DNA of 60,601 nt from NCBI GenBank assembly GCA_016840405.1, contig JAEOSK010000016.1:1-60601 (forward strand), in the 5' to 3' direction. The stretch comes from Candidatus Hermodarchaeum yapensis. Lineage in GTDB: Archaea; Asgardarchaeota; Hermodarchaeia; Hermodarchaeales; Hermodarchaeaceae. Below, one piece after another: positions 39,536 to 51,756 of the stretch. The translations under genes were made by a program, and so were the position numbers. The notes beneath the pieces were generated by a model. That model searched no databases. It was not told where the DNA came from and saw only the letters and a list, made by a program, of their open reading frames with translations. Every line of letters starts with the position of its first letter. Position 1 is the first letter of the stretch.

Positions 39536-40507
39536 ATGATGAACAAGAAACAGACTCTCATTCTTTACCATCCACTCATGGCAATGGAAGGGTACCCAGT
39601 TCTCGCTGGGCGTGTAGAACCTGCTTTTGAGTATCTTCGGGAAAGCGGAACTTTAGACGCCCCAGAGGTTTTTGTAGAAGAAGCCCAAGATGTACCTGAA
39701 GATTTGCTCTTATCGGTTCATACGGCGAATCATATCCAGCGTGTTAAGGATTCGGGGTACGATCCAGCTTCGCTTGTATCTGGTGGGGCGGCTGTCAGAG
39801 CGGGTGAAGCCGTTTGGCTCGGTGAAGCTGCTAATGCGTTTGCATTCACTGGTTGTGCAGGACATCATGCCAGTCGTGATTCGTTCTGGGGATTTTGTTA
39901 TTATAATAATTCAGCCCTGCTGGTGCGGCATCTTCAGCAAGTACATGATGTGAAGCAATTTTTCATTGTGGATACTGACCCTCATCCTGGTGATGGCACC
40001 CGTGACACGTTGGGTGATGATGAGGGTGTTTTTCATTTGAATTTCGAGGCGAGTTTCCGAGAACGAGTTGATATCACATCTGATCGACATGTGGATGTGC
40101 CTTTTCCGAGTAGTAGTGGAGATGAATCCTTTGTTGAAGCGGTTCGTCGATTGGTCCCTCCATTGGCTCGTCGAAGTCGAGCACAAATGATTCTGTGGAA
40201 TATGGGTCACGATGCCCATGCGCAGGATTATGGGGGATTCAATCTGTCGCTTCGGGCATTCCCTGCTATGACAGATATTTTGATTCAGGCAGCAGCTCAA
40301 GTGTGCTCAGGACGGCTTGTAGTACTGTTATCAGGGGGTTCCGAGGTGTTCGTGGCGCAGCACGCGATTTCGAGCATAGTCCGGAAACTGGCAGGTTTAC
40401 CATCACTACCTGAGGATATCCAAGATCAACCCAGCACTGAATCGAATGCTACGAAAGAAACAGCCCGTAAACTGACAGATACAGTCCTTCAGGAATGGGA
40501 CCTTTAA
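39536..40507 (+). CDS. Histone deacetylase-fold amidohydrolase with altered active site
   Basis: A 323-residue member of the arginase/deacetylase superfamily. The His pair H110-H111 (AGHHASRDSFWGFCYYNN) and zinc ligands D148 and H150 (VDTDPHPGDGT) and D226 (GHDAHAQDYGG) are in place. The position of the transition-state tyrosine, normally in GGY, reads GGS (S269), so the usual deacetylation chemistry may be impaired or changed. Targets in archaea could be acetyl-lysine on chromatin proteins or acetylated polyamines. It is convergent with the RING-like gene of the SMC operon (8 bases between them). Confidence 0.83.
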   Translation: MMNKKQTLILYHPLMAMEGYPVLAGRVEPAFEYLRESGTLDAPEVFVEEAQDVPEDLLLSVHTANHIQRVKDSGYDPASLVSGGAAVRAGEAVWLGEAANAFAFTGCAGHHASRDSFWGFCYYNNSALLVRHLQQVHDVKQFFIVDTDPHPGDGTRDTLGDDEGVFHLNFEASFRERVDITSDRHVDVPFPSSSGDESFVEAVRRLVPPLARRSRAQMILWNMGHDAHAQDYGGFNLSLRAFPAMTDILIQAAAQVCSGRLVVLLSGGSEVFVAQHAISSIVRKLAGLPSLPEDIQDQPSTESNATKETARKLTDTVLQEWDL

Positions 40508-40515
40508 GAGGAACA

Positions 40516-40974
40516 TTAGGTGGTTCCTACTTTTTCCCAAGCCACCCATTTACCTTGCGCTCGTCGGACTAAGACGAGCCCAAATCGTTGCCAGATTTCT
40601 TCACGGGTAAGAGGTTCTTCCGAGGACATGTGAAGTTGTGAATCGTGCTGGGGGCGTATAAGAGGAGACGGTTTCGTATAGAATAAGTTATCAATTAAAG
40701 CGCCCACGCGTCCTTTTTGGTATTGATCTTTAACGAAGATGAGGATCTGCTCAGAGGGAATATCGGCGGGTTGCAGAGTATGGCGAGGAACTCCTTGGCT
40801 AAATGAGGGACAGACACCACCCATAGTAGAGTGGACAATTTCAAGACATTGAGGGTCAACGAAAAACTGACACCGGACACATTGATGCCACCCGTCGTGA
40901 ATGGCTTGCTCTAACGTGGTCCGGGACCCGCAGGCCATGCAAGTGATGCCCACGGTGGAGAGATCTAACTTCAT
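40516..40974 (-). CDS. RING-like zinc protein of the SMC operon
   Basis: A 152-residue protein with six cysteines at its N-terminus: C12-x2-C15, C32-x2-C35, C43 and C55. The spacing matches the zinc protein of the ubiquitin-like operon (46879-47265): both read CxAC, then L-(E/D)-(Q/E)-A, then W, CxxC, P-x-C and G-x-CP. Here one ligand position is Asp (D40) rather than Cys. This is the pattern of the small RING-finger proteins found in archaeal ubiquitin clusters. The C-terminal 90 residues are unrecognised. It is the last gene of the four-gene SMC operon, overlapping the winged-helix gene by four bases; by position and type it is a candidate for the Nse1 RING role. Confidence 0.75.
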   Translation of the reverse strand: MKLDLSTVGITCMACGSRTTLEQAIHDGWHQCVRCQFFVDPQCLEIVHSTMGGVCPSFSQGVPRHTLQPADIPSEQILIFVKDQYQKGRVGALIDNLFYTKPSPLIRPQHDSQLHMSSEEPLTREEIWQRFGLVLVRRAQGKWVAWEKVGTT

Positions 40975-41612
40975 AGTTTATCACCCTCCTGAGTTGCTGT
41001 GGCACCTGCGAGATAGATGGTCGAAGCATTAGCTATAGCTTCGCGTCGTTCAGCGTCAAATTCCAGTTCAAGGCGGGGTCCATATGTGATTCGTCGAGCT
41101 GTGCGGGTGATGTATCCCAATTCACCAAGTCGACGAAGAATCCGATCTAATTGATAGCGAGAGAGTCGTCCTCGGGCAACAAGCACAGTTTCGATGTCTT
41201 TGGTGGCAATTCGTCGAGGTCGCTTAGTTTTACTAGCTCGTTCAATCGTGGCAATGATGACGCCTAAGACAGCATACTCGGGATCTGAGAGTTCTCCCGG
41301 TACCCCATAGAGGGTTCGAATACAGTACAGAGTATCGCGACCGAGTCGATATTCGACAAGTTCCAGACCTAACGGTGCGATTTCTTGGCGAAGCAAATCA
41401 AGGAGCCTTGTTAGCCCAGTCTTGTTGATATGGAGAGCTTCCTGCAAGTCTTGACGTTTGACCCCGATATTTAACTGGCCTTCTTCGTTTCGATACCGGG
41501 CGGTGAGAGCAGCAAAGAGTTGACCGAGAAGATGCCGTTCTTCAAATTCCTCTTCTTCCTTGACATCTGAAGGGTCAGGCACGTCATTAGGAGCATTAGG
41601 ATCGGTGGTCAT
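40971..41612 (-). CDS. Tandem winged-helix protein, Nse3/MAGE- or Nse1-like
   Basis: A 213-residue protein with an acidic disordered N-terminus (about 25 residues) and two winged helices. The first runs about residues 28-105 (GLELVEYRLGRDTLYCI as wing) and the second about residues 110-185, with helix ATKDIETVLVARGRL, helix YQLDRILRRLGELGYI and a wing ending YGPRLELEF (177-185). That last block recalls the WGPR-x-x-x-E end of the MAGE homology domain in Nse3. In Smc5/6 complexes Nse1 and Nse3 are paired tandem-WH proteins bound to the kleisin Nse4; in bacterial complexes MukE or ScpB fill this role. The overlap with both neighbours supports a joint complex. Assignment to MAGE rather than a generic kite protein is inference. 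Confidence 0.7.
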   Translation of the reverse strand: MTTDPNAPNDVPDPSDVKEEEEFEERHLLGQLFAALTARYRNEEGQLNIGVKRQDLQEALHINKTGLTRLLDLLRQEIAPLGLELVEYRLGRDTLYCIRTLYGVPGELSDPEYAVLGVIIATIERASKTKRPRRIATKDIETVLVARGRLSRYQLDRILRRLGELGYITRTARRITYGPRLELEFDAERREAIANASTIYLAGATATQEGDKL

Positions 41613-42406
41613 CGACGACGCACCTCCGCGTATTTTTTCGCTTCAATGGCAACTGCGGCAAAAGTTGCATTGGCTGAAGGTTCTTTGTGTTTCGATAGAA
41701 ATTTTACTGAATTTTTGTCGAAGAGTGCAGGAATTATATTATCACGAATCATCTGGCTAAGAAGGTCCAATTCCCAATTTGTCAAGTGATCGGATAATTC
41801 GGAGTATTTGAAACGTTTTCCTTGAAGCCGTTTATGAAGTGTGTTTCTTAACGTATCAAGTGAGTCGATTGATACCTCAGAAAAGGGAACCTGATGTTGC
41901 TTCATCGCTTGTTGATCATCACGAGTGGGTGCTTCTGACATTGTTACAGGATTATCAGTATCGGGAAGGGAGAAGTGTGGAACGGAACGTTCACGATTCA
42001 CCAAAAACATTAGAGGTGTGGCTCGCCGCTTGACTTCCTCTGCGAAGTGGATAATCCATTCTTCTGGAGCTAGTTCAGGTGCTGCTAGATGAGAATCACG
42101 GTGGTGTTGCATGGTGGCAAGGGTATGGTAAAACCGACCGTCAAGATTCCGTTCCCATGGAGTTTCTAGGACCCGATAAGCATCAGCTACTTCTTCCCGA
42201 TCGATCTCAGCTTCTTTCACAGGAATGATATCCTTTTGCTTCAAAGCCCCTTCGTATTTCTTGGTAAGATTCCACAACGTGATTGTAATTCGTTTCGTTC
42301 CAAAGGGTGTCAATCGGTTGCGTTTGTAGTTATGTTGGAATGTTTCATACCAGGCTTTCCGTCGGGGGAATGCACGAAGATAGGTGGAGGTTTCATTTGA
42401 TAGCAT
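41609..42406 (-). CDS. Putative kleisin (Nse4-like) subunit of the SMC complex
   Basis: A 265-residue protein encoded between the SMC and the tandem winged-helix protein, exactly where kleisins are found in SMC operons. It shares one base with the SMC stop (TAATG) and four with the next gene. The N-terminus is basic and helical, the middle is long and polar, and the C-terminal 80 residues (FKYSELSDHLTNWELDLLSQ, then DNIIPALFDKN) look like a winged helix, as kleisin C-termini do. Direct similarity to Nse4, ScpA or MukF is not evident, so the call rests on operon position and overall layout. Confidence 0.6.
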   Translation of the reverse strand: MLSNETSTYLRAFPRRKAWYETFQHNYKRNRLTPFGTKRITITLWNLTKKYEGALKQKDIIPVKEAEIDREEVADAYRVLETPWERNLDGRFYHTLATMQHHRDSHLAAPELAPEEWIIHFAEEVKRRATPLMFLVNRERSVPHFSLPDTDNPVTMSEAPTRDDQQAMKQHQVPFSEVSIDSLDTLRNTLHKRLQGKRFKYSELSDHLTNWELDLLSQMIRDNIIPALFDKNSVKFLSKHKEPSANATFAAVAIEAKKYAEVRRR

Positions 42407-45306
42407 TAGGATTTCACCTCCCCTTTCAGAAGCACTATGTGATGCATGGTCTCGGGGATTTGGAGTCCCACGGTCGAAGGCGCCATCAGGAGAAACTGTG
42501 GTGGAATGAGTGTGTCTTCACTGCTAAGGGCTAGAGTTCGTTGCACAACGCTCAGAACAGCCGCCCGACTAGCCTCATCCAGACGTTGTGTGAATTCATC
42601 AATGACATGGAGGGGGCTCTTTGCGAGTGTATGTAATGCAAGGATAAAGGTCTGAGTGGCAAGAACTCGCTCACCACCCGACATTTCTTGATAAGTACGC
42701 CAATCGCCCTTTCGATTGATCGCAAGTTGAAGGTGCAATTCCGCTCGACTTGGTTCATCAGGAAAACGAACTATGAGTTTGACTTGTTTCAAGAAGTGGC
42801 TGAGAAGTTGATTCATTCGAAGATTGAGAGTTTCGACTGTTTGTTCTAGCTGGTGTCTCCATTCTGTTAACCGACGCTCAACATCTGTCATGAGGTTTTC
42901 AAGATGAAGCTGACGTTCTTTGAGATAATCATGAAGTTCCGACACAACTTTTTCTTGCTCTTCAAAGGCTGTGCGATCTTTCGCTGTTGCGGTGATTGTT
43001 GTTATCATTGCTTGAATTTGTAGTTGTTCGTCTCGAACAACGGAAGGCGTGCGGACCTCCTGAGGTCGTTCTCCCAACGATTTTGCTGTTTTTCGGAACT
43101 CTTTTGCTTGATCTAATATGTGTTTGTATTCATCTTCGCGTTGACGGAGTTCTTCGGTGATTTGGTCTATTATCGCCGAACGACGAGCCCGACGAGTATC
43201 TAGATTTTGGAGTTGCCCCTCGATCTTTTGTAATCGGGAATTGAGTGGAGAAAGCTCAGCTGATTGGTTTTGATAATCTTGACCCCATGCATCTCTTTGA
43301 TTATCTAGTTCCAAAATTTGTTGATGTAAGTCAGTGGCACGGAGTTCCAAATCCGATACCAGCGTGGTTTTTTCCATGTCAGTGAGTGTAGCAGTTTGTC
43401 CGTGCCGTAGATCTTGGAGCTGCACTCGGAGTTGACTGATTTCCGAGTTGGCCCGCATCCGATCTCGCATTAATCGTGCTTCTTCTTCGCGGAGTTCCCG
43501 AAGGAGTTGTCGGATTTTTGCGGTGTCCTGGGTTATTCCCAACTCGCGTAGTGGGGTACCTAAGTTGATGGTTACGGGGCGGGGTGGACGGGCAAAGGCT
43601 CCGATGCGGAGGTAAAAACTGGATCCTTCACTAGTGATGATGTTACCATTGAGTTGTTGTGTGGCATCCACTAGAGAGTTAGGATCTGCAGACTCTTCTG
43701 CGACAGCAGTGTTGACGACGCGACTGAGAAAACTCACTGCATAGGTGTCGCCTTCAATGAGATCAGCTGCCCATCCGAACACTGGGGGAGACACCACGGG
43801 TCTATCGCGGGTGATCGAAGTTGTTGGATTGGTTCGAGCAACCACTAGGTTTGGTTTTTCTTGAGGCCAAAGTTGATCAAAAAGGGTTTTTGCCTCGCTG
43901 AAAGCTTCACGGTTCAGAGCAATGAAGGCATAATTGTATCGACCCATTGCGAGTTTTACTGCGGTTTCGTGCTGAGCATGTTCTGGTTTCATACCAATTA
44001 GTGTGAAAATGGGACCAATCACAGAATCGGAGAGTACGCGTTGATCAAGCCCTTCTCGGAACCGCTGGCAAGCACGTAAGATGGTTTCTTCATAGCGGGG
44101 ATAACGTTGTGGTTGGGTAAACAGTTCTTCCTCGGTTGCTGTAATATCTTGTCGAAGGCTAGCCAGTTGTTCATCTAGCAGGTCACGTTCATTGGCAAAT
44201 GTAGTTAGTTCTTGTTGTAACACGGATTCTTTGGTTTTCTTAGTCCGTGGTCGCTTAGATTTTGAATAGCGTTGAATCTGCGAATTGACTGTGTTTAATT
44301 CATTTTCAAGTCCTTGGTGATGTCCTCTTGCCTGCATTTGCTGATCCCGAATTGACTCCAGCTTTCCTTGCAGCTTTTCCTTCTTTTCTCGTGCACGTTC
44401 ATATTTGGAGATAAGTTCAGCTCGTCGGTCATCGAGTTTGGTCAGATTCGCATTTTCAGTGGCTAAAAGCGCTTCCTGATTTGATATTTGTGTTTGAAGC
44501 TGTTCGGCTAATTCTTCTCGATAGGCAACTTCTGCCCAAGCAGCCTCGTTATCGAGAACCTGCAATCGCTCTTGCAGTTGTTGTTTTTGAAGAAACGCTT
44601 CATAGGCAGTTTTCAAAACTTGTAATCGTTGTTCCTCGTGTCGTATTCGATACTCCAAGGGCTTTACATTTGCCTTGGCTTGAAGAACTAGGAGGCGTGC
44701 TTCCTCAAGTTTTTCCATCCAATTCCGCAAACCTGTTTCATTTAGGAGCGTCTCAAATTTTCGTTTTGGTGATTGGGAGGCAAAATGGTCGAGGGTTTCG
44801 GCTTCGGTGATTGCTAGTGGTGAATCCCCAAATAGTCCTGCAGCTTGAAAGAGTTTCCGAATATCGGTTCGCGTGATTTGAGAACCATTAAGTGATCGTT
44901 GTCCATTAATCCAGTAAGAAATTCGGTTACTAGGATGAATTCGGAGACGAATCGATACTATGTCCCGGTCAAGGAGTTTCGCCAATGCATGATCAGGACT
45001 AGTAAGTATTCGTCGTCCATTCAATTGATAATTATTCAGTTCCAAAACAACTTCAGCGTATTTTTCAAAACGCCCAATGAAGGCTGCGTTCCGTTGTCGC
45101 TGTACCCGTCGAGATTCTACACCGATGGCATAGAGTAGAGCATCGAGAATTAGGGTTTTTCCACTTCCATTAGAACCCGTTATCAAAACAATGGGAGAGG
45201 CATCTAATCGAACGGTGGTGTCGCGGTGAATGACAAAGTTCACTAGGCGGATGCTACGAAATGCCAATGGTGGAATTGAAGGCGATAGCTCTTGCCCAGT
45301 GGTCAT
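42406..45306 (-). CDS. SMC-family ATPase with Smc5-type features
   Basis: About 966 residues: Walker A GSNGSGKT (44-51), coiled coil, a hinge near residues 415-550 beginning SVIGPIFTLIGMKPEHA, a returning coiled coil, signature SGGERVLATQTF (about 876) and Walker B LHVIDE (about 899-904). Three points match Smc5 rather than canonical SMC or Rad50: the GP-(I/V)-x-x-x-I hinge entry, the VIDEFTQRLDE after Walker B (VVDEINQGMD in Smc5), and the FLLMAPSTV segment near the end (YFLITPKLL in Smc5). Arms are short for an SMC. ATG 45306 is preferred over 45336 because AGGT lies upstream. Only one SMC is encoded, so it probably forms a homodimer. First gene of the four-gene operon. Confidence 0.87.
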   Translation of the reverse strand: MTTGQELSPSIPPLAFRSIRLVNFVIHRDTTVRLDASPIVLITGSNGSGKTLILDALLYAIGVESRRVQRQRNAAFIGRFEKYAEVVLELNNYQLNGRRILTSPDHALAKLLDRDIVSIRLRIHPSNRISYWINGQRSLNGSQITRTDIRKLFQAAGLFGDSPLAITEAETLDHFASQSPKRKFETLLNETGLRNWMEKLEEARLLVLQAKANVKPLEYRIRHEEQRLQVLKTAYEAFLQKQQLQERLQVLDNEAAWAEVAYREELAEQLQTQISNQEALLATENANLTKLDDRRAELISKYERAREKKEKLQGKLESIRDQQMQARGHHQGLENELNTVNSQIQRYSKSKRPRTKKTKESVLQQELTTFANERDLLDEQLASLRQDITATEEELFTQPQRYPRYEETILRACQRFREGLDQRVLSDSVIGPIFTLIGMKPEHAQHETAVKLAMGRYNYAFIALNREAFSEAKTLFDQLWPQEKPNLVVARTNPTTSITRDRPVVSPPVFGWAADLIEGDTYAVSFLSRVVNTAVAEESADPNSLVDATQQLNGNIITSEGSSFYLRIGAFARPPRPVTINLGTPLRELGITQDTAKIRQLLRELREEEARLMRDRMRANSEISQLRVQLQDLRHGQTATLTDMEKTTLVSDLELRATDLHQQILELDNQRDAWGQDYQNQSAELSPLNSRLQKIEGQLQNLDTRRARRSAIIDQITEELRQREDEYKHILDQAKEFRKTAKSLGERPQEVRTPSVVRDEQLQIQAMITTITATAKDRTAFEEQEKVVSELHDYLKERQLHLENLMTDVERRLTEWRHQLEQTVETLNLRMNQLLSHFLKQVKLIVRFPDEPSRAELHLQLAINRKGDWRTYQEMSGGERVLATQTFILALHTLAKSPLHVIDEFTQRLDEASRAAVLSVVQRTLALSSEDTLIPPQFLLMAPSTVGLQIPETMHHIVLLKGEVKS

Positions 45307-45376
45307 ACGTCTACCTATCTCCCACGCGTTTTTCATTCGGTGACGTTATTCACTAACTCAAACTAGACCATGACTC

Positions 45377-45386
45377 TTAAACTTTC
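45377..45386 (-). promoter_or_regulatory. TATA element of the SMC operon
   Basis: On the minus strand this reads AAAGTTTAAG, preceded by GTG, and would start transcription around 45350. It closely resembles the element of the divergent ubiquitin-like operon at 45484-45494 (AAAAGTTAAAG). Confidence 0.45.
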
Positions 45387-45483
45387 ACTTAATCGAAGGA
45401 CAGGGCGCCACTTCTAACCTTTTTTGTCCCGACATATTTCCAGCCTTGATTAAACAAGGACGAGAAGGCGAGTTAGCATCGAG

Positions 45484-45494
45484 AAAAGTTAAAG
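45484..45494 (+). promoter_or_regulatory. TATA element of the ubiquitin-like operon
   Basis: AAAAGTTAAAG lies about 40 bases before the start codon of the ubiquitin-like gene. The shared GAAA-GTT-AAG pattern with the SMC promoter across a 220-base divergent region suggests joint control of both operons. Confidence 0.45.
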
Positions 45495-45530
45495 TGTGTG
45501 CTACGCTCCTCCCCAGATAGGTGATTTGTC

Positions 45531-45857
45531 ATGAGCAATGAAGAAGGTTTTTGGCGCTCAATCATTGTGGACGTTGAGCCACGCCAGAAGGAATTTCGAA
45601 TTGGTATTGATGATGAAACCCGAGTTGAAGAAGTAATTCGCACCCTTGTAACACAAGCTCGGGATGAAGGCGTGAGTGTTGATGATTGGGCGAAAGCAAA
45701 GATTGGAGATCAACGCCCAGAATTCGTTCTAATTCGAAAAGCCCCAGAACCCACCAGATTAAGCCCCGGTGCCACCTTTGGGGAATTGGAACCAAAAATC
45801 ACTGATGATGAGTTCTTCCTCTTAGATGTCGTACCAGAAGTAGGGTTCTCGTCCTAA
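45531..45857 (+). CDS. Ubiquitin-like beta-grasp protein
   Basis: A 108-residue protein whose strand pattern (WRSIIVDVEPRQKEFRIGID, helix RVEEVIRTLVTQARDEG, later FVLIRK, then LSPGATFGELEPKITDDEFF and LLDVV) follows the ubiquitin/YukD beta-grasp fold. The late L-x-P-x-x-T-x-x-E-L-x-x-x-I-x-D segment is the ubiquitin loop before the last strand. The C-terminus is VVPEVGFSS, so there is no Gly-Gly; a single G105 with a three-residue tail is the nearest candidate for a processed end. It leads an operon with E2-like, RING-like and transglutaminase-like genes, near E1 and JAMM. Ribosome site GGTGAT is six bases before ATG. Confidence 0.75.
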   Translation: MSNEEGFWRSIIVDVEPRQKEFRIGIDDETRVEEVIRTLVTQARDEGVSVDDWAKAKIGDQRPEFVLIRKAPEPTRLSPGATFGELEPKITDDEFFLLDVVPEVGFSS

Positions 45858-45906
45858 TGAGAGAAGTCTTACTCCTTGCTAATCAGAGGATTAGGGGAAA
45901 CTTGCC

Positions 45907-46668
45907 ATGTCGCGTCCAGTATTCTCAACGGAGTTATTCAACGCTCGAGTCGAAACTCAGATTCACACGTTCTTCGATACAATGAGCAATCTGTACGGTC
46001 GAAGGGGTTGGCAACCGGACCCACCAATTCGGGAGGACACCACATGGTCAAATGCAGATTTCACTGTAGCCATTATCAGCCGATATCGTGATGGAACATA
46101 TAAACGAATACGGTTTATTATGCGAAACCTCCCTGGATATGTGCGGGAGCCTGACTCGTTAACAAGCACAAGGTCCTTACGGTATGAGCATCGATTTGTG
46201 TTCGATCTTCCCCGGGAGTATCCCCAAAACATTGGTACGATTCGACCCGCAGCAGAATTACCACTCTTTCATCCCCGGCTATCAGCGAGTGGAACTGGAC
46301 ATGCTTGCTATTCAGTTCGCGGGGAATTGGACCGCATTTTAGAGGACCTGCCATTCTTTGTGTTGTTGAAACCAGACCGTGTGGAACCGCCATCTCAATT
46401 CCAATCGGACCGAGGTCTGAATGCTGCAGCTATGGCCTGGTATGAAAAAGATACAGAGAATATCGTGAATACTCTGGACCGTCTTTGGGAAGACCGTCAT
46501 CAGACTAGCGTTATTATGACTCCATTGAAAGGGCGTGTCCGAATTCTTGATGGTGAACCTGAACCAGCTAGAACAAGTCGACGACCACCACGTATTTTGG
46601 ATGTGAAAGAACAGCGGTCTGGGACAGTACGAATTCTAGATGATTCATCTTCAAATGACGATTCTTAG
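45907..46668 (+). CDS. E2-like ubiquitin-conjugating (UBC-fold) protein
   Basis: A 253-residue protein. Residues 45-185 carry the UBC-fold pattern: FVFDLPREYPQN (YP at 105-106), LFHPRL (HP at 122-123) followed by G-x-x-HACYS with C134 at the place of the catalytic cysteine, and the final helices ending in AAAMAWYEKD, as in the E2 helix that follows the PxN loop. The usual HPN triad reads HPR. The C-terminal tail (205-253) is disordered and has three copies of a (V/P)-R-I-L-D motif at about 211, 229 and 241, the last followed by DDSSSNDDS. Known E2s accept the activated modifier from E1 on their cysteine. Confidence 0.77.
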   Translation: MSRPVFSTELFNARVETQIHTFFDTMSNLYGRRGWQPDPPIREDTTWSNADFTVAIISRYRDGTYKRIRFIMRNLPGYVREPDSLTSTRSLRYEHRFVFDLPREYPQNIGTIRPAAELPLFHPRLSASGTGHACYSVRGELDRILEDLPFFVLLKPDRVEPPSQFQSDRGLNAAAMAWYEKDTENIVNTLDRLWEDRHQTSVIMTPLKGRVRILDGEPEPARTSRRPPRILDVKEQRSGTVRILDDSSSNDDS

Positions 46669-46681
46669 GTGATTTTGCGCA

Positions 46682-46882
46682 ATGTCGGACCGTCCACCTG
46701 ATAAGGAAGAAGAGAAGGAAGAATCGGAAAAAGATGAGGAACCGACATCAAATCGCATTGTTGTATTAAATGAACGGGATATACCCTTTGAAGAAGAACG
46801 CCCACCGAATTTTTCACCACACTTTGCAGTTAAAGTGCACCGTGTGCAGAAAGACACTAGTTCGGAGGAGAATGAGAAGTGA
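46682..46882 (+). CDS. Small acidic protein with SIM-like motif
   Basis: A 66-residue protein; the first 20 residues are nearly all Asp, Glu and Lys, followed by RIVVLNERD (25-33), a hydrophobic-acidic motif like those in its two neighbours, then a second acidic stretch (FEEER). It has GGTGATTT as a ribosome site, lies 14 bases after the E2-like gene and overlaps the RING-like gene by four bases, so it is a real member of the operon despite its size. No fold is recognised. It may be an adaptor that binds the ubiquitin-like protein. Confidence 0.65.
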   Translation: MSDRPPDKEEEKEESEKDEEPTSNRIVVLNERDIPFEEERPPNFSPHFAVKVHRVQKDTSSEENEK

Positions 46883-47265
46883 GTGTGCATGGCGCATCGC
46901 ATATGAAGTGCGTAGCCTGTGCAAACCAAGTTTCACTGGATGAAGCACGACGTGAATGGTGGATTTGTACAACATGTGGTAGCTACATGTGTCCCAACTG
47001 TCGATCATTGTTTCTTGAAACTGGACAGGGAACCTGTCCTGGCACAATCGTTCGGGGGGTTGAATCTCACCCACCCCATTTCACACGGTTCCTCGGTCCA
47101 CGAGATGAACCAGAAGTTGTGTTACCTGAAATTCGTTCAACGGTGGAAATCTTAGAAGATGTGCGACGGAATCAGCCCCGTTCACCCGGTGGTCGAGTGA
47201 TTATCCTTGATGACGATGAAGCCCTAGGCGAAGCTGACGAAGAAACGCAAGGTCAGGAGCAATGA
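46879..47265 (+). CDS. Small RING-like zinc protein of the ubiquitin operon
   Basis: A 128-residue protein with seven cysteines: C11-x2-C14, C30-x2-C33, C38-x2-C41 and C53, plus H residues that could supply an eighth ligand. This is the layout of the small RING-finger-like protein (srfp) found next to E1, E2 and ubiquitin genes in Caldiarchaeum. It is also clearly related to the zinc protein of the SMC operon (40516-40974). The tail has two hydrophobic-acidic motifs, VEILED (89-94) and RVIILDDDE (106-114). It is the probable E3-type component. GTG 46879 overlaps the preceding stop; GGAGG is upstream. Confidence 0.8.
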   Translation: MSVHGASHMKCVACANQVSLDEARREWWICTTCGSYMCPNCRSLFLETGQGTCPGTIVRGVESHPPHFTRFLGPRDEPEVVLPEIRSTVEILEDVRRNQPRSPGGRVIILDDDEALGEADEETQGQEQ

Positions 47266-48137
47266 AAACTTCCTCCACAATTCTTTCTCACAGAGTCACC
47301 TATTCAACCAAGATTCAAAATACTTCGGATAATCCACTCTCTGGGATCCGTGTGTTTGTTGCCTTTCCACCACCCCTCCCTCCTCGCCAAGAACTCATTA
47401 ATCTGTCATCAATTCCTGTTTCGGGTCGTCAGGCCACAGATTTGAAGGGAAATCATTGGTTGGATTTGACCTGCGACCGATTAGCTGGAAAGGAAACATT
47501 CACCTGTGGTTACACTGCGTTGGTCCGGAATCGTTCCATCCATTACAGACTGCCCCAGTCTACTAGAAACTCCTCAGTACCCTCCAGCCTCGTTGGATAC
47601 ACCAAACCAGAAAACTTCATAGAATCTCACCATCACCTAATCAAAGACCTAGCCCGTGACCTTTCCAGCAAAAACCCCAATCCCATTCCATTCGTGAAAG
47701 CTGCAATGCGTGCTGTAACAAAAACAATTCGATATTCTCCTCAGAAGTATGAGCGCGGGGCTGCTTTTGCGATTGAAAAACACGTCGGAGATTGCACCGA
47801 ATTTGCTGCACTATTTACTGCCCTCTGTCGGGCGAAAGGAATTCCTGCAAGATTAGAAGCGGGATTTGCATATAATAGGAAAAAGTGGGAGCGGCATGCA
47901 TGGAGTGTAGTGTGGATTCAGGACAATTGGATTCCCGTTGATCCGACGTGGTATGGCAACAGTGGCTGGTTGGGCGTGACCAACCGTCACATTCCCCTCA
48001 TTATTGGTAACTGGATGGATATTCGTATCCACCAAGAGTTCAAAATGACATGGTCGCACAAACCACAAACAACTCCACCACAATTGGGTTCAAAATGGAA
48101 AGTCACGAAAGTTGTGAGTATCTTAAATTCAAGCTAG
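47262..48137 (+). CDS. Transglutaminase-fold cysteine protease-like protein
   Basis: A 291-residue protein. An N-terminal beta-rich domain (about 1-115) precedes a transglutaminase-like core with the full triad: C178 in HVGDCTEFAALF, H212 in ERHAWSVVW and D227 in PVDPTW. Archaeal and bacterial members mostly act as peptidases or amidases. It overlaps the RING-like gene by four bases, so it belongs to the ubiquitin-like operon and could process the modifier or remove it from targets. It is convergent with and abuts the E1-like gene. Confidence 0.82.
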   Translation: MKTSSTILSHRVTYSTKIQNTSDNPLSGIRVFVAFPPPLPPRQELINLSSIPVSGRQATDLKGNHWLDLTCDRLAGKETFTCGYTALVRNRSIHYRLPQSTRNSSVPSSLVGYTKPENFIESHHHLIKDLARDLSSKNPNPIPFVKAAMRAVTKTIRYSPQKYERGAAFAIEKHVGDCTEFAALFTALCRAKGIPARLEAGFAYNRKKWERHAWSVVWIQDNWIPVDPTWYGNSGWLGVTNRHIPLIIGNWMDIRIHQEFKMTWSHKPQTTPPQLGSKWKVTKVVSILNSS

Positions 48138-49004
48138 TTATTTGTGTTTTCGTTTGTCCCGACAAAATGTCTCACTACATCGTGGGTTCACCATTATTTG
48201 ACCCGACGCAGCCTGATGTCGATTTAGGTCGTACTTGATAAACCGACCCAAAGCAGGTTCCAAACCGTCTTGCCACTGTCCCGTTTCTCGCCACTGTTTC
48301 AACCCCACAAGAACGCGAACCGCCTCCCAGGCCATTACAGCACCCACCACTGAGGTCACAAAACTAATCATAGGAAATCGCGGAACTGTGTCCACAAAGA
48401 AAGGGTCACATCGTGTCCGTACCTCATTGGCGACAACGTGGTCGACGAAGTCTTTACTCCACGAGCACACAAGACATGCTGTGTGAGGAGGCGCAAGCAC
48501 CTCAACTGAGACAAAATCCTTGCCCATCGCCCCATTAATGAGAGGATGTGGTGGATTAAAGCTGAAATTTTTCGCATTTAGGAGATAGCGTGCATAGTGA
48601 TTATCTACACCAACCAAGACCAGTTGAGTATCCCAGACAGAATCGGGCGCTTGTTGAATAGTCGCTGCGTGAGGTTCGACTACAGTGTTCGTGGCGAGTT
48701 CTGGTAACCGTTCAGCTACCGCCTCCACTTTGAATTTGGCTTCATGGTCTCCTGGGCGGAAAAAGATACAACGATTAAGATTCGATGCAGCAACTTTGTC
48801 CGGATCCACCAAGATAATTTTGCCTACGCCAAGTAATCCAAGGTTTTTACATACCTCATTTCCAACAGCACCAGCGCCTACCATGAGTACTGTAGATTGT
48901 TGGATGGTTTCGAGATTATTAGCTCCCAGCCAGCGACGAGTCCGATCGTGTTGATCTCGCTCGAAAAAACTAAGTTCAATTGGCGTGGGTGATTCCTTAG
49001 TCAT
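48138..49004 (-). CDS. E1-like adenylating enzyme (ThiF/MoeB/UBA family)
   Basis: About 288 residues. The nucleotide loop GAGAVGNEV (GAGAVG at 43-48), the DPDKVAASNLNRCIFF segment that binds ATP and magnesium, and the crossover region KDFVSVEV are diagnostic. A CLVC pair (177-180) and a C-terminal CSETFC probably bind zinc. C199 in RTRCDPF is a candidate for the thioester cysteine. ATG 49004 overlaps the JAMM stop by eight bases; an upstream start at 49061 would lie inside the JAMM gene. It should activate the 45531-45857 modifier, although that protein lacks a Gly-Gly end. Confidence 0.88.
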   Translation of the reverse strand: MTKESPTPIELSFFERDQHDRTRRWLGANNLETIQQSTVLMVGAGAVGNEVCKNLGLLGVGKIILVDPDKVAASNLNRCIFFRPGDHEAKFKVEAVAERLPELATNTVVEPHAATIQQAPDSVWDTQLVLVGVDNHYARYLLNAKNFSFNPPHPLINGAMGKDFVSVEVLAPPHTACLVCSWSKDFVDHVVANEVRTRCDPFFVDTVPRFPMISFVTSVVGAVMAWEAVRVLVGLKQWRETGQWQDGLEPALGRFIKYDLNRHQAASGQIMVNPRCSETFCRDKRKHK

Positions 49005-49611
49005 GAGGTTCAGCCTCCTCATCCTGTTGGGTCTCTTCAGAAGTTGGTGTGCTTTCGTCAATTGGTACAGAGGGTTGGTAAGTACACCAGTCTACCTGTT
49101 CGAGTTGAAGACCTGGTTCATCGGGTCGAGGACGAAGCATATAGACTTTGAAAATGCGACTCAACGGGTCAATGAGGAAGAAGATATTACCCTCAGCACA
49201 GAATGGTGTATTGAAGAAAGTGCGTAAATCAGTGGATGAGAACTGCGGGTCGCCACCGAATGGGTGCGAATGCCAGAGCCCTACAACGCGAGGCGTATGT
49301 GGATTAGTCCCATATCGATCATGTAATGCTAAGCGGTATTCTAGAATGCCTTCTGGTGTGAACCGAGCATACGCCATACTTGCTTCAACGCGTCCAGTGG
49401 CCCAATCAGTTACTCGGATGTAATTTTCATCTAGCCATGTACGGCGGAAGCCGAGAATCACCCCGAGCGCTTCACGCGGTGGCTGCCGTATTGCTTCCTG
49501 ATGACAAAAATTGAATATCTCATGGCAGGTCCGTTTATAGACATAAACTGGGTACACTGGTTCATCGATTAATGTATCACTGTTTACCATGGGAATATCT
49601 TGATTTGACAT
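48997..49611 (-). CDS. JAMM/MPN metalloprotease (AMSH/Rpn11-like deubiquitinase type)
   Basis: About 204 residues. The zinc site is complete: E47 in PREALGVILG and the HSHP...SSTD block with H114, H116 and D128. The text HSHPFGGDPQFSSTDLRTF is close to the AMSH pattern (FLSSVDLHTH), with one extra residue between the second His and the Ser. The last 30 residues are acidic and disordered. JAMM enzymes cut isopeptide bonds or trim the modifier precursor. First gene of a two-gene unit with E1. ATG 49611 is preferred over GTG 49632. Confidence 0.9.
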   Translation of the reverse strand: MSNQDIPMVNSDTLIDEPVYPVYVYKRTCHEIFNFCHQEAIRQPPREALGVILGFRRTWLDENYIRVTDWATGRVEASMAYARFTPEGILEYRLALHDRYGTNPHTPRVVGLWHSHPFGGDPQFSSTDLRTFFNTPFCAEGNIFFLIDPLSRIFKVYMLRPRPDEPGLQLEQVDWCTYQPSVPIDESTPTSEETQQDEEAEPHD

Positions 49612-49715
49612 GAGCCGTTCACACCATTTCACTTGATTATGAATAGTTAAATCCTAGTGATACACCCATATATTTCCAAGCAGTCTATCACAAATGGAAA
49701 GGGAGTTGGATAGCA

Positions 49716-50259: not shown

Positions 50260-51732
50260 CTAAAACTGGCTAAGATGAGAGGTATCACCAAGTTTGCTAG
50301 ACCAGGGATAGCGCTCCATGATATTATCTAGTAGGCGACGTAGCTTCGTAACTTCAGATGTATTTGAATAAACTAGAAAGACAACTCGTCCACCACGACT
50401 GCGTTTCATTTTCTGATAAATTGTCTTTGTTGTGTTCACTGTATCACAGATAATGAGTAAATCTGTATCTGGTAAATCCAAGTCACGTTCCCCTACAGGT
50501 GAGAGGATGACCGCAGCGGGGGGTTTGGCTTGCCTGAACTCTGAGAGTAAAGCTTGTTTGTCCATCGTCCGCCCAGTAAGCTGAAAGGTTTGGACTCCTT
50601 TTTCTGTGAGGAGCCTATCGATTTCACTGACAACAGTAAGGTATGAGGAGAGGATTACGGTTTTTTCTGCATTAAGAGCAAGATCTCGGGCTTCGATGGA
50701 TTTCGGTGTAGTTTTGGGCCAATCTTGCATCATTCGGTTGACATCGATTTGGGGTTTAATGGTGGGATGATGAAGATACCGTCGAAAACTCTTTGCAGAC
50801 ATGCCGTAGAGATATTTCCGAATCATCAGAAGTCCATTATATTTTTGTCCGAGTTCTTCAGAGATGGGTAGTTCGTGAAGCATCAAGTGGAGTAACCGCG
50901 TGTTCTCGGGAAGTGTTCCGACGGGTTCTTTTGTAGCTTCTCGAACGGTTTCATAGATTTCTTCTCGAGTCGACTGAATTAGGTCATCGAGGACCAATGC
51001 CATTGTCCGGATGACTGGATTCTGGACCGGAGCTGCGTCAAGGATGGTGGGTTTGATGTATTGCTCCAAGTCAGTGCCTACGAGTTCATCCATGCTGATC
51101 AATTCAACATTGGTCAGAAAAGTGGCGAGGGTTTGGAGTTCATCTCGAATTTGAATTTGCGCGTCGTTGAAGATGACGTGGTCGTCACGAAGTGTTCCAC
51201 TAAGCCCAATAATCCAGCGATCTTTAAAGAAGTCCAGGAGGAAGCTCCAGGGTTGGATGAGAACTTGATTATGTCCAACACGACGGAGAATGGTATCTAC
51301 CTCGTTGATGAGGAGTCCTTCGAAATGCTCAGGGCCGAGTTCACCTTTTCGGAGAATATTCGCAAGGACGCGAGCGGTACTAAGAACGACGCGTGAGTCG
51401 CGTAGGAGTTTGACACGTTGGGGTCCACGAACAAATGGTGTGAGGACCCCCAACCCTTCGACACCACCGTATTCTTCCTCGAGATATTGGGCAGTTTCTT
51501 GGAGTGAGGATGAAGAATTGACAGTAATTACAAAACGTGTGGTGGGGAAGAGCTCGGTGACAAGTTTGTAAGTGAGAACGCGTTTTCCAAGCCCGCAATC
51601 TAATTCCACTAGGATGTTGTTGTTGCGATTTTCCTTGACGCGTTTGAGAATGTGCTCTTGATATTGTCGTGTGTCAAATCGGGGGGTGTCGGAATCGCAA
51701 TCCAGTGGTTCTGCGGGGGGAGTAGGTGACAT
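50260..51732 (-). CDS. Degenerate SF2 helicase-like protein
   Basis: About 490 residues with two RecA-like domains. Motif I reads LDCGLGKRVLTYKL, with Arg instead of Thr/Ser at the magnesium position. Motif II reads NEVD instead of DEx(H/D). Motif III (SGTLRDD), motif V (VGERDLDLPDTDLLI) and motif VI (YQKMKRSRGGRVVFLVY) are recognisable. The overall order, with a helical insert between the domains (about 215-345), recalls the Hef/Mph1/FANCM branch, though XPB-like proteins also fit. Loss of key residues suggests it binds rather than unwinds DNA. It lies downstream of the ubiquitin-like cluster. Confidence 0.7.
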   Translation of the reverse strand: MSPTPPAEPLDCDSDTPRFDTRQYQEHILKRVKENRNNNILVELDCGLGKRVLTYKLVTELFPTTRFVITVNSSSSLQETAQYLEEEYGGVEGLGVLTPFVRGPQRVKLLRDSRVVLSTARVLANILRKGELGPEHFEGLLINEVDTILRRVGHNQVLIQPWSFLLDFFKDRWIIGLSGTLRDDHVIFNDAQIQIRDELQTLATFLTNVELISMDELVGTDLEQYIKPTILDAAPVQNPVIRTMALVLDDLIQSTREEIYETVREATKEPVGTLPENTRLLHLMLHELPISEELGQKYNGLLMIRKYLYGMSAKSFRRYLHHPTIKPQIDVNRMMQDWPKTTPKSIEARDLALNAEKTVILSSYLTVVSEIDRLLTEKGVQTFQLTGRTMDKQALLSEFRQAKPPAAVILSPVGERDLDLPDTDLLIICDTVNTTKTIYQKMKRSRGGRVVFLVYSNTSEVTKLRRLLDNIMERYPWSSKLGDTSHLSQF

Positions 51733-51756
51733 CTTCACTTTTCCTATGGCAACGAG

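Follow-up and report, generated by a model that had tools for sequence, protein, structure and literature searches.

The locus analysed here raises the question of whether an SMC complex and a ubiquitin-like protein (Ubl) conjugation pathway that are encoded side by side form one system, and whether this system is akin to eukaryotic Smc5/6. Asgard archaea are related to the lineage from which eukaryotic cells arose, and the locus may resemble a forerunner of Smc5/6. Given the link of Smc5/6 to ubiquitin and SUMO ligases, a compact and fully encoded Asgard system would allow tests with purified proteins. Literature searches, chiefly of open-access papers, gave no account of any prokaryotic SMC complex that has a dedicated Ubl conjugation pathway.

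The window, i.e., the whole stretch of 60,601 nucleotides that was analysed, belongs to a Hermodarchaeota-type Asgard genome (family f1). A sequence-only reading had described a leftward four-gene operon, a rightward Ubl operon, and E1 and JAMM genes converging on the latter. All of these are present, and every gene position named was verified from the sequence and the ORF coordinates (Table 1); the s66 ORF was absent from the gene list of that reading. The SMC, KLE, WH and RINGa genes lie on the minus strand, with neighbours overlapping by 1-4 bases each (4 bases for the kite and RINGa genes). The E1 and JAMM genes, also on the minus strand, converge on the plus-strand Ubl operon, and the JAMM frame contains an internal ATG at 49611.

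Table 1. Features of the SMC and Ubl locus in the window.
Feature	Position	Strand	Basis
RINGa, RING-like zinc protein	40516-40974	-	22-member alignment
Kite (WH), tandem winged-helix protein, 213 aa	40971-41612	-	predicted model
Kleisin-like protein (KLE), 265 aa	41609-42406	-	N-terminal helices and C-terminal winged helix (predicted)
SMC ATPase, 976 aa	42406-45336	-	Walker A GSNGSGK, signature SGGE, Walker B VIDEFTQRLD
Intergenic gap, 194 bp, dividing the two divergent operons	45337-45530	.	coordinates
Ubl, ubiquitin-like modifier, 108 aa	45531-45857	+	11-member alignment
E2-like protein (E2L), 253 aa	45907-46668	+	H122-P-R motif, invariant Cys134
s66, 66-aa protein; single SIM-like motif RIVVLNERD, conserved PPN block	46682-46882	+	
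RINGb, short RING-like zinc protein with SIM-like motifs STVEILED and RVIILDDD	46879-47265	+	
Transglutaminase-like protein, triad residues in GDCTEF, RHAW and VDPTW	47262-48137	+	Pfam Transglut_core 2.8e-22
E1, single-domain, ThiF fold, conserved Cys pairs	48138-49061	-	Pfam ThiF 1.4e-34
JAMM peptidase, motif E...HSHP...S..D	48997-49632	-	Prok-JAB 2e-8

As had been read from the window sequence, the locus contains a single SMC gene with the Walker B context VIDEFTQRLD, and each genome has one full match of this family, genes split at contig ends apart. The key residues of Walker A, the SGG signature and Walker B are invariant in all nine aligned members, and the window protein gave no match to the Pfam hinge model PF06470. 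When the family profile was compared with the PDB, the best match was yeast Smc6 (6.3e-26), and profile searches ranked eukaryotic Smc6 above canonical Smc. The possibility of a Rad50-type protein was rejected, as the NCBIfam Rad50 models scored far below their cut-off, with the best stretches at the ATPase end.

A total of 74 SMC rows were collected, from which three trees were made that contain no Smc5 and no Smc1-4 sequences: one of 67 rows (7 omitted after a failed motif search), one of 54 rows (13 further rows omitted) and one of 47 rows (without the 6 bathyarchaeal rows and L084). In the 54-row tree, the window family forms a 100/100 clade outside canonical Smc, so that grouping with canonical Smc, which would have spoken against the earlier reading, was not obtained. 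In this same tree, eukaryotic Smc6 joins the bathyarchaeal rows (87/76) to the exclusion of the window family, which counts against a close tie of this family to Smc6. In the 47-row tree, the window family and eukaryotic Smc6 are on one side of a branch with support 77/33, and the alternative topology uniting the window family with canonical Smc was not rejected (p-AU 0.136). The trees do not establish the proposed likeness to the ancestor of Smc5/6.

The f1 and f24 genomes tested have canonical Smc alongside the window-type SMC. No canonical Smc above the TIGR02169 cut-off was found in f17, including the complete chromosome of Heimdallarchaeum endolithica, where the window-type complex may be the sole SMC complex; since just 4 of 14 controls and 28 of 59 relatives reach this cut-off, the survey cannot establish that canonical Smc is absent. 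A full-length TIGR02169 match below the cut-off is present in f13 genome G029.

Next to the SMC gene, the predicted partners were analysed by structure predictions of two single chains. The WH model is a kite, as anticipated, with tandem winged helices encoded beside the SMC and kleisin-like genes; its best match in structure comparison is Nse1-Nse3-Nse4, tied with ScpB. The MAGE-like YGPR ending ascribed to this protein is present in the window, but its Gly and Pro vary among relatives. KLE occupies the kleisin position in the operon, as had been noted. The KLE model has low confidence. Over the whole length it is matched best, though weakly, by chains from Smc5/6 structures, in a tie with unrelated helical chains; a kleisin fold is predicted with moderate support. 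ScpA is missing from the KLE match lists, which excludes nothing. Pfam searches gave no family for the window KLE and no lead among the best 25 of 28 families for the KLE set, and none of the WH, KLE and RING profiles matched PDB sequences under E 0.05. The ScpA model PF02616 matched in 4 of 26 genomes (9 of 14 controls) and missed f24 genomes having canonical Smc, so that its negatives mean little.

The candidate zinc ligands of RINGa (C12, C15, C32, C35, C43, C55 and H65) are largely conserved among its 22 members, with C15 replaced by His in f24 and Asp at position 40 in f1. Its conserved C-terminal part reads EE.W..FG.V...R..GK..W. Domain and PDB searches returned weak RING matches, and RINGa resembles RINGb (tblastn E down to 5.8e-9).

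We then consider the conjugation cascade. Val104-Gly105 of Ubl is invariant in 11 of 11 aligned members and is followed by FSS in the window protein; the nine f24 members read already end in Gly as encoded. A beta-grasp signal (YukD) was obtained for 4 of the 11 members, with a best E of 0.015 that is below cut-off, and the Ubl profile gave a single, meaningless match in the PDB. In E2L, H122-P-R and C134 are invariant in an alignment of 12 members, six of which match UQ_con (best 2.3e-4; the window protein has no match), and the catalytic regions of E2s align at Cys134, though with weak E-values (0.026). With an HPN-like motif and a candidate catalytic Cys, E2L thus fits the E2 type as a putative member. 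Outside Asgard-named records, the only E2L relative found carries a Zixibacteria label. The best PDB match of E1 is UBA6 (2.4e-27), with UBA1 lower in the list, and its invariant Cys at about 48408-48410 is presumably catalytic. The JAMM motif is conserved among the relatives read. Other UQ_con E2s above cut-off are present in 26 of 26 genomes tested. Relatives of the transglutaminase occur in f1, f8, f17, f23 and f24; weaker ones are present in genomes that lack the SMC complex.

The pattern [VI]x[VI][ILM] was used to count SIM-like motifs, with E2L pieces under 200 aa omitted. It occurs 40 times in 18 E2L tails (3.3 expected), 18 times in 17 s66 proteins (2.1 expected) and 15 times in eight RINGb tails (0.8 expected). 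The strict pattern is missing from two of the E2L tails, both from f23, and an acidic flank does not accompany every copy.

The main evidence that the two operons belong together is their repeated linkage. In 8 of 8 f1 genomes, the SMC and Ubl genes lie next to each other in divergent orientation, and the locus genes recur in all seven other f1 genomes as far as contigs extend, and again, at 17-39% identity, in Heimdall lineages; this recurrence, including the f24 cluster, rules out chance neighbours. In the distant Heimdall lineage f24, a single co-directional cluster contains these genes, with the cascade genes directly behind RINGa. Six of these loci were read through s66 and three are interrupted inside the cluster by contig ends, their other halves being read on further contigs; in the three stretches that were read beyond the cluster, RINGb is located some 6-9 kb further on. 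In f23 genome G100, a JAMM gene follows SMC-KLE-WH-RINGa and is the sole linked cascade gene seen in f23, where the Ubl genes are on another contig than the SMC operon. s66 has relatives in f1 and f24 and in a single f23 genome.

Among 227 Asgard genomes, Ubl and E2L are confined to the same 19, all of which have the SMC complex. WH was found in 18 of these 19 and in 32 of the remaining 208 genomes; in the nineteenth (G005), SMC lies beside Ubl. The 19 genomes represent only three families, so these counts are not independent; the Ubl and E2L profiles include f1 and f24 rows, and it was with these profiles that f23 was detected. Named genomes were scanned with two peptide patterns, which does not amount to a census. 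The order SMC-KLE-WH is seen in f1, f17, f21, f23, f24 and L084, and in f20 with an opposite-strand ORF in between. Window-type Ubl and E2L were not found in this survey in f17, f20 and f21, Heimdallarchaeum-type genomes that keep SMC-KLE-WH-RINGa, which speaks against a strict coupling of this core to the cascade. Linkage in two arrangements in two distant lineages, with JAMM linkage and co-occurrence in a third, supports the earlier suggestion that the complex and the pathway belong together, and the neighbourhood survey does not refute it.

The two operons could instead be adjacent modules that share regulation only, with a chromosome-organising SMC complex in which RINGa is structural, and a Ubl cascade tagging unrelated proteins with RINGb as E3. 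The core-only genomes just described fit such a separation, as do the contig position of the f23 Ubl genes and the presence of RINGb as the own RING of the f1 Ubl operon and also in f24. We nevertheless consider it unlikely, because linkage is retained in two different arrangements, the f24 cascade genes follow RINGa in the same direction, RINGa and RINGb are alike, and none of the 227 genomes has Ubl/E2L without the SMC complex.

A defence system against mobile elements or viruses, in which a Wadjet/Lamassu-like SMC is joined to a Bil-like Ubl cascade, would account for the PADLOC matches of the SMC to LmuB and JetC (best 9.7e-28) and of E1 and JAMM to E1-E2, BilD and JAB models; SMC complexes including Smc5/6 and Wadjet have also been reviewed as immune factors (PMC10586767). 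However, at E up to 0.01 PADLOC gave no match for KLE, WH, RINGa, RINGb, Ubl, E2L or the transglutaminase, and no effector-type Pfam match was found among 20 window proteins. Moreover, HDAC-like, helicase, HAD and malic enzyme neighbours are retained throughout f1 as far as contigs extend, unlike in a variable defence island. These neighbours and scans rule out a plain defence island, and a defence function in the wider sense appears highly improbable. The third explanation concerns ancestry only and is compatible with a coupled complex: the SMC may be a variant of ordinary Smc-ScpAB, its Smc5/6 likeness being convergent or due to long branches. The p-AU value given above leaves room for it; the 100/100 clade, the coexistence with canonical Smc and the ranking of Smc6 in profile searches argue against it, and we regard it as doubtful, though deserving some weight.

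On balance, we consider it reasonably likely that the locus encodes a one-SMC, Smc5/6-like complex coupled to a SUMO-like cascade, whose Ubl, E1, E2 and JAMM, encoded alongside, would tag proteins where the complex acts on DNA. At the sequence level, the evidence consists of the genes, the motifs conserved in them and their recurrent linkage, from which we infer the tagging mechanism as follows. An SMC homodimer, the likely kleisin KLE, the predicted kite and RINGa would form one complex. In Hermod lineages, JAMM would trim Ubl to its C-terminal Gly, after which E1 would activate Ubl and hand it to Cys134 of E2L. Since its gene overlaps the kite gene, RINGa is likely held on the kite, like the RING half of Nse1, and would there bring charged E2L to the SMC ring, the likely targets being KLE, the arms of the SMC or proteins bound to DNA. 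The SIM-like tails of E2L, s66 and RINGb may grip Ubl and aid chain or cluster formation, and JAMM would also undo the tagging. The transglutaminase, a frequent companion, perhaps acts in a proteolytic step. RINGa is kept in f17, f20 and f21 without Ubl and E2L, so that its first role may be structural or via another E2.

The SMC-kleisin-kite architecture is shared with bacterial Smc-ScpAB and MukBEF/Wadjet, which are not known to have RING or Ubl genes. No match to a Wadjet JetD-type nuclease was found among 20 window proteins (Pfam) or 10 (PADLOC). With the window locus, a predicted kite enters archaeal SMC biology, where its presence is itself unusual, as archaeal Smc complexes have been described as generally lacking one (PMC7055376). 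The E1/E2/srfp operon of Caldiarchaeum likewise has Ubl, E1, E2, a small RING and a JAMM gene against the operon direction, its JAMM trims the Ubl precursor, and archaeal Rad50 was modified in vitro; its Ubl has a di-glycine, in contrast to the Val-Gly end here, and the term SMC is absent from the main text (PMC5654768). New in the present locus are the invariant Val-Gly end of Ubl, the SIM-like motifs in three tails and the RING gene overlapping the kite gene.

An archaeal "SMC5/6-related SMC" of 15-21 sequences has been reported to group with Smc5/Smc6 (Yoshinaga and Inagaki 2021, named in PMC9389158). The window family, also likened to Smc5/6, may be among these sequences; the main text of PMC9389158 does not contain "ubiquitin", and its parts consulted mention no operon partners. 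Smc5/6 itself differs from the window system in having two different SMC subunits and two kites (Nse1 and Nse3) instead of one gene each, and a RING fused to the Nse1 kite instead of the separate RINGa, whereas the window system brings E1, E2 and JAMM genes of its own, located within or close to the locus. The tree placement (77/33; p-AU 0.136) leaves membership in Smc5/6 unproven, and we think it unlikely that an ancestral stage lives on here as a one-SMC Asgard Smc5/6, with an SMC homodimer, an Nse4-like kleisin, Nse1 split into kite and RING, and a SUMO-like cascade with SIMs; if true, eukaryotic Smc5/6 and its SUMO/ubiquitin tie would have descended from such a stage. Among SMC complexes, eukaryotic Smc5/6 alone has ubiquitin and SUMO ligases among its subunits; its Nse1 combines the kite fold with a variant RING and has Nse4 as reported substrate (PMC8750328), and Nse2 acts via two SIM-like motifs (PMC8636563). 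The window system resembles it in combining an SMC, a kleisin-like protein, a predicted kite best matched by the Nse1-Nse3-Nse4 chain and a RING-like protein probably tied to the kite, and in its tie to a Ubl pathway with SIM-like motifs.

All genes proposed by the sequence-only reading were found at their positions in the window, whose source is an 86%-complete Asgard genome. Successive genes of the minus-strand SMC operon overlap by 1-4 bases, and 194 bp separate this operon from the plus-strand operon of the ubiquitin-like modifier (Ubl), which also includes s66, an ORF left unnamed by that reading. A histone-deacetylase-family gene (39536-40507) adjoins RINGa, as it does in six of the six further loci of the window's genome family, f1, that reach there (L031-L035, L037), and a ResIII/Helicase_C helicase gene near JAMM (50260-51738) is retained in the five f1 loci reaching that point (L031-L034, L036).

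Genes of the SMC and Ubl operons and their neighbors in the window
Gene	Position	Strand	Length (aa)	Description
SMC	42406-45336	-		first of the four SMC operon genes
KLE	41609-42406	-	265	kleisin-like protein
WH	40971-41612	-	213	tandem winged-helix kite
RINGa	40516-40974	-	152	RING-like protein
Ubl	45531-45857	+	108	ubiquitin-like modifier
E2L	45907-46668	+	253	E2-like protein
s66	46682-46882	+	66	ORF
RINGb	46879-47265	+		second RING-like protein
TGL	47262-48137	+		transglutaminase-like protein
E1	48138-49061	-		beyond the Ubl operon
JAMM	48997-49632	-		beyond the Ubl operon

In all eight f1 genomes, SMC and Ubl are adjacent and divergently oriented, and E1 and JAMM lie next in the six with contigs long enough. 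A scan of named genomes yielded 40 loci, of which eight are from Hermod genomes, 31 are labelled Heimdall or Asgard and one is from Coatesbacteria. Nine of the 31 are of the f24 type, a co-directional cluster with the order SMC-KLE-WH-RINGa-JAMM-E1-Ubl-E2L-s66; six were read through s66 (SMC being cut by the contig start in one), and three end inside the cluster at contig ends, their missing halves being read on other contigs. The adjacency of the two operons, for which a survey of related genomes had been proposed, is thereby borne out, and the altered gene order is stronger evidence than co-occurrence counts. Both f23 genomes have their SMC operon and Ubl genes on different contigs (SMC-KLE-WH-RINGa plus the start of JAMM, and Ubl-E2L-s66-TGL, in G100; SMC-KLE-WH running to the end of its contig, and a separately located Ubl-E2L-TGL, in G101), so only the JAMM linkage is seen in this family.

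The other 22 loci are of the Heimdallarchaeum type, with SMC-KLE-WH-RINGa in all 18 that have sufficient contig reach. TGL falls inside the examined stretch in 15, and Ubl, E2L, E1 and JAMM gave no match within these stretches. Families f17, f20 and f21 contain SMC-KLE-WH-RINGa, with an opposite-strand ORF separating SMC from KLE in f20. The Coatesbacteria locus (L084, 9965-13504) has SMC-KLE-WH without a RING gene, which might reflect an older core, a transfer or misbinning. Genome G183 carries another SMC-ORF-WH locus (L173, 8934-17716); some 3-5 kb away are an E1-like gene, identified by profile match, and E2-like and UEV-like genes, identified by reading the sequence. In 4/5 f17 and 4/6 f24 genomes, TGL is no more than about 5-11 kb from the SMC-Ubl cluster or the SMC operon (L039, 11102-12703; L193, 7101-8813; and others), with or without Ubl, and its relatives are also present in genomes without the SMC complex.

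Profiles built with f1 and f24 rows, plus f17 rows for WH and RINGa, were searched against 227 Asgard genomes and also found f23. Ubl and E2L were detected in the identical 19 genomes, WH in 50 (weak matches counted) and RINGa/b in 42. Of the 19 genomes with Ubl, 18 also have WH, versus 32 of the 208 others; in the nineteenth, SMC and Ubl are adjacent on a 3.7-kb contig (G005). The Ubl genomes represent three families only, and hence few independent events. Of the 90 E2L relatives in a large protein set, the organism-named ones are all Asgard except one labelled Zixibacteria (P0200), which may reflect misbinning or transfer.

The window SMC matches Pfam SMC_N (5.3e-23), gave no match to the PF06470 hinge in the Pfam scan, and matches TIGR02168 and TIGR02169 far below the model cut-offs. 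With a profile of nine SMC relatives, the top PDB match was yeast Smc6 (6.3e-26), a prokaryotic Smc following later (2.7e-20). Among the best 120 of 866 matches in the large protein set, Asgard relatives rank first, followed by bathyarchaeal SMC-like proteins of about 650 aa (P0037-P0097) and eukaryotic Smc6 (best 2.0e-42); from 1.8e-39 on, SMCs mostly with a PF06470 hinge are interspersed with further Smc6. In three trees of SMC heads (67, 54 and 47 rows) the window family is a single clade (SH-aLRT 100 with 67 rows; 100/100 with 54 and 47) outside canonical Smc. Grouping with canonical archaeal Smc, named beforehand as a refuting outcome, is seen in none of the three trees; the alternative topology that has this grouping passes the AU test (p-AU 0.136). 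Placement relative to Smc6 varies with the rows used: the family joins Smc6 at 77/33 when the bathyarchaeal rows are left out (47 rows) and is separate from it when they are included (54 rows). Six of these bathyarchaeal proteins group with eukaryotic Smc6 at 87/76. Two more Asgard SMC-like clades (L097, L102, L108, L109; and L100, L103, L106, L107, L112) are separate from both canonical Smc and the window family. Archaeal "SMC5/6-related" SMCs, which may or may not include this family, are reported to group with Smc5 and Smc6 (PMC9389158). KLE and its relatives all end in a short hydrophobic peptide (AAVAIEAKK, SSVLLSPK, SQSIVLTPK).

Canonical Smc exceeded the TIGR02169 cut-off, a strict one reached in just 4/14 control genomes, in 4/4 f1 and 7/7 f24 genomes tested, and in 0/9 f17, 0/1 f20, 0/2 f21, 0/2 f23 and 0/1 f13 genomes, as well as in none of three additional f17 genomes. 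Below it, large pieces were found in one f17 genome (G065) and the f23 genomes, and a full-length match in the f13 genome (G029); the remaining f17 genomes, f20 and f21 had no match better than 1e-18. Therefore, f1 and f24 have the window-type complex in addition to another SMC complex, whereas in f17 it may be the sole one.

E1 matches ThiF (1.4e-34), with UBA6 as its top PDB matches and UBA1 lower; JAMM matches Prok-JAB (2e-8) and TGL Transglut_core (2.8e-22). Six of 12 E2L members match UQ_con (best 2.3e-4), the window E2L itself giving no match; H122-P-R and Cys134 are invariant, and Cys134 aligns, though at weak E-values, with the catalytic regions of E2s. Other UQ_con E2s exceeded the cut-off in 26/26 genomes tested and 0/14 controls. 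V104-G105 of Ubl is invariant in 11/11 members. The encoded C-terminus is exactly at this Gly in 9/9 f24 members read, 1-3 residues beyond it in the seven different f1 sequences, and, of the two f23 members, at it in one and one residue beyond in the other. RINGa and RINGb have a pattern of zinc ligands in common and are similar by tblastn. The motif [VI]x[VI][ILM], frequently followed by acidic residues, recurs across 18 E2L tails (40 observed, 3.3 expected, sd 1.7), 17 s66 (18 versus 2.1) and eight RINGb tails (15 versus 0.8), expectations coming from shuffles of each tail and the counts not being independent because the sequences are related. Eight of nine f24 E2L tails end in GG[VI]RII-COOH. 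These SIM-like motifs may bind the locus's own Ubl.

Taken together, the locus appears to encode an SMC complex of the kite type that includes a RING subunit and is coupled, in two or three Asgard lineages, to a SUMO-like cascade. The strongest counter-evidence is that f17, f20 and f21 retain RINGa without a Ubl and E2 of this type; the proposal that complex and pathway act together is favored by linkage in f1 and f24 and weakened by these three families. The RING subunit is likely attached to the kite, and the cascade's targets would be DNA-bound proteins, the kleisin or the arms of the SMC, by analogy with Nse4 and Rad50: the eukaryotic kite Nse1 bears a variant RING, its reported substrate being the kleisin Nse4 (PMC8750328), and Rad50 is reported to be modified in vitro by the Caldiarchaeum cascade (PMC5654768). 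The system resembles Smc5/6 in layout, but we do not count it as a member, because it has one SMC and one kite instead of two of each and its RING is not fused.
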